From: Candidatus Altimarinota bacterium
Lineage (GTDB): Bacteria > Patescibacteriota > Gracilibacteria > UBA4473
Assembly: GCA_021734395.1 (NCBI GenBank)
Contig: JAIPJB010000002.1
Coordinates: forward strand, 1-64,000
DNA: 64,000 nt
Direction: 5' to 3'
The notes under the pieces are model-generated. The model was given only the letters and a program-made list of their open reading frames with translations. It did not search any database and was not told where the DNA came from. A program made the translations under genes and the position numbers. Each line of letters opens with the position of its first letter. The first letter of the stretch is position 1. Positions 37,046 through 38,312 of the stretch are shown here, piece after piece.

Positions 37046-37079
37046 GGATACGAACTCTTGATGCTTGGAGTTCGTATCC
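37046..37079. repeat. inverted repeat between divergent promoters
   Basis: Perfect 12-bp arms GGATACGAACTC and GAGTTCGTATCC separated by 10 bp. It lies between the hisS promoter and the Phe-leader promoter. The same arms (one base changed) form the terminator at 37775-37815. Confidence 0.75.
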
Positions 37080-37101: not shown

Positions 37102-37130
37102 TTGACAATAAAATGTTTCTCTGGACAATA
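37102..37130 (+). promoter_or_regulatory. promoter of the Phe leader peptide
   Basis: TTGACA (37102-37107), 17-18 bp, ACAATA/CAATAC (37125-37131). Transcription would start at about 37137, at the ATG of the leader ORF (37138). Confidence 0.6.
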
Positions 37131-37137
37131 CACACCG

Positions 37138-37206
37138 ATGATATCAAACACTTTCTTTTTCTTCTTTTTCTGGAAACTGGCTGAGCCGGTGCATTCTGGT
37201 ATGTAA
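37138..37206 (+). CDS. 22-residue Phe-rich leader peptide
   Basis: ATG at 37138, TAA at 37204-37206. Codons 6-11 are six consecutive Phe codons (37153-37170), followed by Trp; the rest is KLAEPVHSGM. This matches the logic of pheA/pheST leader peptides, where ribosomes stall when charged tRNA-Phe is scarce. The ORF begins at the predicted transcription start, so it would be translated leaderless. Confidence 0.7.
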   Translation: MISNTFFFFFFWKLAEPVHSGM

Positions 37207-37255
37207 AAAAAGAAGAAATCCAGAAAGTAAGCCGGCTCGAAAGCCGGTTTTTTTT
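37184..37255 (+). promoter_or_regulatory. candidate phenylalanine attenuator
   Basis: Segment 2: AGCCGG (37184-37189) and TTCTGG (37194-37199), within the last codons of the leader ORF. Segment 3: CCAGAA (37220-37225) and CCGGCT (37232-37237). Segment 4: AGCCGG (37242-37247) plus eight T. Pairing 2-3 gives a nested 6+6 bp antiterminator; pairing 3-4 gives the hairpin CCGGCT-CGAA-AGCCGG with T-run, an intrinsic terminator. A ribosome stalled on the last Phe codon would leave segment 2 just free; one reaching the stop would cover it. Confidence 0.7.
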
Positions 37256-37276
37256 ATTTTTTTATTCCCATTTCTT

Positions 37277-37747
37277 ATGAAATATATCATTCACCGTCAT
37301 CAGATATCTTCTCCGCAATTCATTTTCAAAATAGAAAACGATATTTTCCTAGGAGGAAGCCAAACAAAAGCGGGCATGGACGCTGATAAATGGAGTTCTA
37401 TCGAGCGAGAAGATGAGCGCAAAAAACAAGAGGAAAAAATTGCGATCTCCGTCAGCATTGGTATTGCCGATATCATAACAAAAGATGCAAACAAAAAAGA
37501 GGAAGATATGCAAAAAATAAAAGAATTACGATCTCAAATATCAGAGCAATATAAAGCCGAAATACAACAATTAGCCGAATCGAACGACCCCGTAGAAATA
37601 GGAAAAATTCTTCGAGAAATACTAAAAAAATTAGAAGCTCACAATCGCCCAAAGTCAGCCGAAATCATCGATAACATGCTGAGCGATATTTGCGAACTAA
37701 AAAATATCGTGCAGGAAAATGTTTCGCAAGTAATGAAATCTGCCTAA
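37277..37747 (+). CDS. unknown protein, coiled-coil, downstream of the Phe attenuator
   Basis: 156 residues. The first 35 residues look like a small beta-rich N-terminus (YIIHRHQISSPQFIFKIEND); from about 40 on the sequence is Lys/Glu-rich and helical with heptad character (about 75-110 and 118-150). No signal peptide or membrane helix. A second ATG at residue 34 is a possible start. No family recognised. It is the first gene after the attenuator and is followed by the hairpin at 37775. Confidence 0.6.
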   Translation: MKYIIHRHQISSPQFIFKIENDIFLGGSQTKAGMDADKWSSIEREDERKKQEEKIAISVSIGIADIITKDANKKEEDMQKIKELRSQISEQYKAEIQQLAESNDPVEIGKILREILKKLEAHNRPKSAEIIDNMLSDICELKNIVQENVSQVMKSA

Positions 37748-37774: not shown

Positions 37775-37815
37775 GGATATGAACTCCAAATATCGAGAGT
37801 TCGTATCCTTTTTTT
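37775..37815 (+). terminator. terminator of the 37277 gene
   Basis: Arms GGATATGAACTC (37775-37786) and GAGTTCGTATCC (37797-37808) followed by seven T. Confidence 0.85.
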
Positions 37816-37824
37816 AAAAAAACT

Positions 37825-37855
37825 TTGACAAAATTTTTCCTATGATTACTTTATT
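37825..37855 (+). promoter_or_regulatory. promoter of the YerC-like gene
   Basis: TTGACA at 37825-37830 and a weak -10 (TTTATT, 37850-37855, spacer 19). The ATG at 37872 follows about 10 nt after the expected transcription start. Confidence 0.45.
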
Positions 37856-37871
37856 AGAGTAAAGTGTTTTT

Positions 37872-38186
37872 ATGAATCTCAATTCTCCGCTCTCCAAAGA
37901 TCTCTTCCGCGCAATTCTTTCTCTTCAAAACGAGGATGAAGCGCGGAGATTTTTGCGTGATCTTCTGACAGAAGGAGAAATAGAAGAATTTTCTCGCCGG
38001 TGGCAAGTCGCCCAGATGCTTGAGAAAAAAATGCCCTACACTCAGATTGAAAAAAAAACCGGCATGAGCTCTCGCACCATTGCGCGCGTATCACAATTTC
38101 TGAATGGTGTTTTTGGCGGGTACAAAATCGTGCTCAAAAGATTCCATCATCACAACGACAAGGCTTCGCCGGTGCGTCGTGGTTAG
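37872..38186 (+). CDS. YerC/YecD-type TrpR-related regulator
   Basis: 104 residues. The helix-turn-helix part is typical of the TrpR-like YerC/YecD family: FLRDLLTEGEIEEFSRRWQV (about 32-51), AQMLEKKMPYTQIEKKTGMS (about 52-71) and SRTIARVSQFL (about 72-82). Known as a DNA-binding protein in firmicutes with no settled target. It lacks an obvious effector domain. Its last codons contain one arm of an alternative hairpin (see 38162-38236). Confidence 0.88.
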   Translation: MNLNSPLSKDLFRAILSLQNEDEARRFLRDLLTEGEIEEFSRRWQVAQMLEKKMPYTQIEKKTGMSSRTIARVSQFLNGVFGGYKIVLKRFHHHNDKASPVRRG

Positions 38187-38236
38187 GAAATAATTTCGTA
38201 ATCAAAACATGCCGGCGAAGCCGGTATGATTTTTTG
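38162..38236 (+). promoter_or_regulatory. terminator with competing upstream arm
   Basis: Terminator CCGGC-GAA-GCCGG (38212-38224) with T-run 38230-38235. The sequence CCGGCGAAGCC (38212-38222) is also perfectly complementary over 11 bp to GGCTTCGCCGG (38162-38172) at the 3' end of the YerC-like ORF. The long pairing would prevent the terminator and allow read-through into 38313. Confidence 0.5.
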
Positions 38237-38312
38237 TACACCTGGATTTCAGCGTGTGCAGAAACATTTTGTGTTGCGTTCTTTTACAAATCAAAAATAA
38301 AGGAGAAAAAAA

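Follow-up and report, generated by a model that had tools for sequence, protein, structure and literature searches.

Positions 37102-37255 of the analysed window, a stretch of 64,000 nucleotides, very probably form a phenylalanine-responsive, ribosome-mediated transcription attenuator, whose transcript would start near the ATG of a short leader peptide and which has a paralogue, a histidine attenuator, in the tail of a nearby hisR-like gene. The attenuator is real and well supported by computation, which covers its parts, their conservation in the only other genome of the genus, a codon-exact switch in folding and the paralogy with the hisR tail; phenylalanine is its likely signal. The element probably turns on the downstream gene when phenylalanine runs out, and its added value beyond a single attenuator lies in the family of re-specified modules to which it appears to belong.

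The phenylalanine leader and its alternative folds

The initial annotation had proposed a promoter, a Phe-rich leader peptide and alternative stems at 37102-37276, and all of these parts were found in place on the plus strand, as are the other features mapped below. Only the promoter required correction: TTGACA (37102-37107) stands as the -35 element, but the -10 element, formerly read as ACAATA, is best placed one base away as GACAAT (37124-37129), giving a sigma-70-like promoter (37102-37129) with 16-nt spacing that is kept in the second genome of the genus (G001). The leader reading frame, MISNTFFFFFFWKLAEPVHSGM followed by a stop codon (37138-37206), begins with an ATG at 37138-37140, 8 nt downstream of the -10 element; there is no Shine-Dalgarno sequence between the promoter and this ATG, and the leader, which has a homologue in G001, is predicted to be essentially leaderless. 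The earlier suggestion that the start point falls at an ATG agrees with this arrangement, as the predicted start coincides with the ATG or misses it by only a few nucleotides. Six Phe codons (segment 1, 37153-37170) constitute the predicted stall site and are followed directly by a Trp codon (37171-37173). Segment 2 (37183-37199), the 5' arm of the antiterminator, comprises GAGCCGG and TTCTGG, with AGCCGG at 37184-37189 and TTCTGG at 37194-37199, and is common to the hisR tail. Segment 3 (37220-37238), comprising CCAGAA (37220-37225) and CCGGCTC (CCGGCT at 37232-37237), serves in the folding calculations either as the 3' arm of the antiterminator or as the 5' arm of an intrinsic terminator hairpin. 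The latter (37229-37255) includes a second AGCCGG (37242-37247) and ends in T8 (37248-37255).

This combination is more than chance. The folding energy of the element RNA has a z-score of -3.9, a value equalled in none of 200 shuffles. Six TTY codons alone are not rare, with 15 exact matches, some overlapping, in the 1.02 Mb source genome (G000), yet a short leader reading frame with a Phe run and CCGGC is present in only two of the 353 genomes of the class, G000 and G001. In G001 the element occupies the homologous place, divergent from hisS, and has the order TTGACA, 16 nt, CACAAT, 9 nt, ATG, the leader MIQNVFFFFFFFGLALSPVRSGV with its stop codon, antiterminator and terminator. Promoter, leader and segment 2 are conserved in the alignment of the two genomes; the spacer and segment 3 have diverged and still pair, so that the antiterminator stems differ in sequence and form in both, and the element is kept although flanking and downstream sequence diverges. 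Differences among the first six Phe codons are synonymous (TTT/TTC), and the G001 leader has Phe at the Trp codon of G000. G001 thus keeps both the Phe run and the alternative stems, which upholds the initial reading; since the Phe version exists in two genomes only, the covariation is anecdotal.

No Phe element was found at hisS in other genomes of the family where the region was readable, and a scan of the genome collection for a Phe run with GCACCGGC gave no further leader among the matches listed. One such match, in Peregrinibacteria (L121), proved to be a coding region with no leader. Elsewhere in the family, most poly-Phe patterns fall within other reading frames, frequently on the strand opposite a Glu/Lys-rich coding sequence.

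The switch was followed by folding the RNA at 37 C with the A site placed at each codon in turn and the nucleotides under the ribosome held unpaired, a thermodynamic rather than kinetic calculation. In both genomes antiterminator and terminator are mutually exclusive: the antiterminator forms when the ribosome occupies any of the Phe codons, and the terminator forms once it has left the run or reached the stop codon. For G000 the probabilities are 0.96-0.99 for the antiterminator and 0.00-0.03 for the terminator on the Phe codons, with the terminator at 0.97 from the Trp codon through the stop; for G001 the corresponding values are 0.66-0.997 and 0.00-0.02, with the terminator at 0.90 at the stop. 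When the assumed 3' footprint is varied over 8-16 nt, the switch point stays no more than one to three codons from the end of the Phe run, and shuffling the sequence that follows the run reproduced a stall-dependent terminator switch in only 10 of 500 (G000) and 21 of 500 (G001) cases. Structure prediction thus yields the alternative hairpins that the initial annotation had expected from the motifs, and folding with a placed ribosome supports its mechanism with Phe as the sensed amino acid. Some features are particular to G001: at 20 C some footprints move the switch to the final Phe codons, the U tract of the terminator is imperfect (GGTTTTTC), and RNA free of ribosomes favours the antiterminator, so that low translation would leave the downstream gene on.

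From these features we infer that transcription starts at the leader ATG or a few bases away from it, so that a ribosome could enter at the 5' end with no need of a Shine-Dalgarno sequence. With sufficient Phe-tRNA the ribosome would pass the six Phe codons to the stop and cover segment 2, leaving segment 3 to pair with segment 4 as the terminator. A shortage of Phe-tRNA would stall the ribosome on the Phe run, segment 2 would remain free to pair with segment 3, and readthrough into the gene at 37277 would follow.

Histidine and tryptophan-tyrosine versions of the module

Two components missed by the initial annotation, a His attenuator at 38145-38235 in hisR and a third genomic copy, place the Phe leader in a wider setting. 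The hisR-like gene (37872-38186) encodes a 104-aa protein of the YerC/YecD-type TrpR family, homologues of which head hisG-hisD operons in relatives. Its C-terminus, RFHHHNDKASPVRRG before the stop codon, contains three His codons (38145-38153), the predicted stall site, and segment 2 (GGCTTCGCCGG, 38162-38172) lies within the coding sequence; the terminator, with T6, follows at 38208-38235, its segment 3 being CCGGCGAAGCC (38212-38222). Folding of the hisR 3' end with the next 50 nt gives the antiterminator with a ribosome on the His codons and the terminator with a ribosome beyond them. Similar switches with different stems are found in the hisR tails of G001, G018, G003 and G016, and the His runs of the paralogues read HHH, HYH or HRH. 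The best functional anchor is G015, a genome that has hisD: hisR, with the tail AHHHTNT before its stop codon, stands there directly upstream of hisG-hisD, and a similar switch lies between hisR and hisG. In auxotrophs the gene behind the hisR attenuator encodes a D-Ala-D-Ala dipeptidase-like protein (G012, G018), a radical-SAM protein (G016) or, elsewhere, orphans.

The generality of the hisR attenuator was assessed over 74 loci, with a mixed outcome. Among all loci the switch is found in 12 of 18 compact His tails versus 1 of 45 otherwise; in the later set of 40 loci alone the counts are 1 of 5 versus 1 of 24, which is not significant, and a simple test of tail His codons against a terminator gives P 0.05. 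An attenuator in every His-tailed HisR gene was not upheld; a paralogue with long HRHH tails has no switch.

The Phe and hisR modules are related beyond their common layout. The 21-nt segment-2 motif GGCTTCGCCGGTGCGTYSTGG occurs twice in the window and in none of 100 shuffles, and in both genomes the copies of its 15-nt core, exact or with one mismatch, are those in the Phe leader and the hisR tail. In each within-genus pairing the two modules can be aligned over segment 2 and everything up to and including the terminator, with a score that none of 1000 shuffles reached, and the downstream half of the Phe element aligns with the tails of hisR genes from two genera, again with 0 of 1000 shuffles in all comparisons but one. 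A covariance model built from six module copies finds both window copies, which belong to its training set, and two copies outside that set, G000:C6:223860-223944 (L304/L311; E 1e-8) and G016:C1:189118-189201 (L296/L312; E 6e-8). The leaders of this third module, MKIFLFCFWYWKAPVLPVRICA and MHTLFFSFLYWQSRFRR, each closed by a stop codon, contain FWYW or end in FLYWQSRFRR; their ATG lies 8 nt after a -10 element with 16-nt promoter spacing, and folding places the switch at the WYW/YW codons, on the last Trp codon or immediately behind it. They precede genes for a 290-298-aa orphan and a radical-SAM protein that is nearest to ThiH/HydG and falls below the cut-offs of those models. Taken together, the four homologous leaders (two Phe, two WYW/YW) have an ATG 8-9 nt after the -10 element and 16-nt spacing, a promoter geometry that fits leaderless mRNA.

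Segment 2, antiterminator and terminator are common to all three modules, and the sensing codons differ. We read the modules as a duplicated and re-specified attenuator cassette in which sensing codons would have been exchanged between copies. Such tails are found on hisR genes of three genera and the Phe leader in a single genus, from which we infer that duplication ran from the hisR tail to the Phe leader, which would then be a copy of the His attenuator with His codons exchanged for Phe and a leaderless start added.

The same comparisons bear on other explanations of the Phe run. It could be thought of as one arm of a long hairpin between U/C-rich and A/G-rich strands in front of a constitutive terminator, with no coding role; the run of G000 is indeed fully paired with 37207-37218 when no ribosome is present, and this AT-rich genome has many TTY runs. 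G001, however, keeps the run although its A-rich partner has degenerated, and also keeps the reading frame, the stop position and the codon-exact switch, and in the paralogous modules this position is taken by His or WYW codons and no such arm exists, which makes a purely structural role very unlikely. Arrest by the nascent chain, of the drug or polyamine type, would make the run an arrest motif instead of a starvation sensor. A hydrophobic Phe run could in principle contact the exit tunnel, and segments 2-4 would then act alike, but runs as different as HHH, HYH, HRH or WYW in the paralogues are expected of codon-supply sensing and not of one arrest sequence, so we give this mechanism hardly any credence.

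A further alternative is a general aromatic or Trp sensor, in which stalling at the Trp codon (37171-37173) counts as well. The answer depends on the footprint assumed, because a ribosome at this codon gives the antiterminator with 8-12 nt and the terminator with 14-16 nt. The third module, with its F, Y and W codons, speaks for such breadth, and the Phe that replaces Trp in G001 speaks against it; on balance we regard broader sensing as unlikely and retain phenylalanine as the signal.

Relation to known attenuators

Gene regulation in CPR bacteria is, to our knowledge, little known, and no attenuators in these bacteria were described in the open-access literature found. The Phe element resembles the enterobacterial pheA and pheST attenuators in its Phe-codon-rich leader peptide, competing antiterminator and terminator and stall-dependent readthrough, and differs from them in its predicted leaderless start, in place of a Shine-Dalgarno sequence, and in a target that is an orphan gene instead of one for Phe biosynthesis or tRNA charging. 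An Rfam search of the window returned only two tRNAs, and no Phe leader covariance model matched at its gathering score.

Leaderless short reading frames with polycysteine runs act as attenuators in mycobacteria (Canestrari et al. 2020, cited in PMC9031893). As these are presented in PMC9031893, the likeness lies in a leaderless short reading frame whose consecutive codons for the same amino acid control downstream genes; phylum and amino acid are different, and the Phe element shows a classical three-segment switch in a module duplicated with other codons. Histidine attenuators and the TrpR-family regulator HisR are both known, each serving in place of the other in different genomes; in that study attenuators were searched for in genomes without HisR (PMC9413887). 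The window has a gene of that family with His codons in its tail before an attenuator, but here, unlike in those systems, the sensing codons sit within hisR itself. Neither a sensing run inside hisR nor a codon-swapped duplicate was found in the open-access papers searched.

If the reading holds, classical attenuation would occur in CPR bacteria, in leaderless form and on genes outside biosynthesis, and attenuators could point to starvation-response genes with no known function. The modules would also show, in a natural setting, how an attenuator is copied and then re-specified by a change of codon run, and how the final codons of a regulator gene can serve as a leader peptide as well. We lean, by a modest degree, towards a scenario in which a duplicable cassette with swapped runs (His, Phe or Trp-Tyr) lets host-dependent, pathway-losing CPR bacteria switch on non-biosynthetic genes when an amino acid is short, hisR being both DNA-binding regulator and leader. 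The genes so switched would be those for orphan proteins, the D-Ala-D-Ala dipeptidase-like protein and radical-SAM enzymes.

Controlled genes, auxotrophy and surroundings

Downstream of the Phe attenuator stands an orphan gene (37277-37747), with no pheA, pheST or aromatic pathway gene there. It encodes a 156-aa protein, with an uncertain start codon and no Shine-Dalgarno sequence before the ATG at 37277; no family assignment was found for it, nor any credible relative in 60 related genomes or the genome collection. A single-sequence structure model was low-confidence and all-helical (pLDDT 53), too poor to use. At the same place G001 has proteins of 108 aa and about 94 aa, unlike the 156-aa protein. 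The controlled gene is thus, by comparison of the two loci, variable and outside the conserved unit, so that no conserved target backs phenylalanine as the signal; because it also lacks detectable relatives, the name of Phe-starvation response factor proposed earlier is speculation.

The suggestion that the organism is an amino acid auxotroph fared better. Prephenate dehydratase (the pheA homologue) is absent from both genomes of the genus, with all 14 of 14 controls positive, and chorismate synthase is present, which makes Phe auxotrophy likely; histidinol dehydrogenase (hisD) is likewise absent from both. These gaps fit Phe and His auxotrophy, with the caveat that the G000 assembly of 1.02 Mb is incomplete (81%). 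The pheS gene of the source genome has no such leader. Homologues of the TrpR-family gene in class relatives contain in-frame TGA, which points to a CPR/Patescibacteria lineage near Gracilibacteria; the source genome itself appears to use the standard code.

An inverted repeat, GGATACGAACTC..GAGTTCGTATCC, flanks the Phe-controlled unit with copies at 37046-37079 and 37775-37808, the second followed by a T run; this second copy with its T run (37775-37816) is the probable end of the unit. A different inverted repeat occupies the position in G001 that matches 37046-37079. Beyond it hisR has a promoter region of its own, where the palindrome ACTTTA-N6-TAAAGT (37848-37865), kept in G000, G001, G018 and G016, is a probable HisR operator and a candidate for autoregulation.

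Boxes resembling boxA (GTTCTTTTA/GTTCTTTGACA) are seen at 38278-38287 and recur some 40-70 nt behind hisR and third-module terminators in G000, G001, G003, G016, G012 and G018, which suggests that NusB-type antitermination may follow readthrough. Between 38313 and 38776 lie a 113-aa gene ending in YKIVEGAGAPWAKIKS and a 35-aa H/F/W-rich reading frame (..DDEPHHQTFLLQFWFHFPRRELH), both kept in G001. A GAGAP stretch in the same region, similar to the N-terminus of the dipeptidase-like proteins encoded in G012 and G018, spans a small hairpin.
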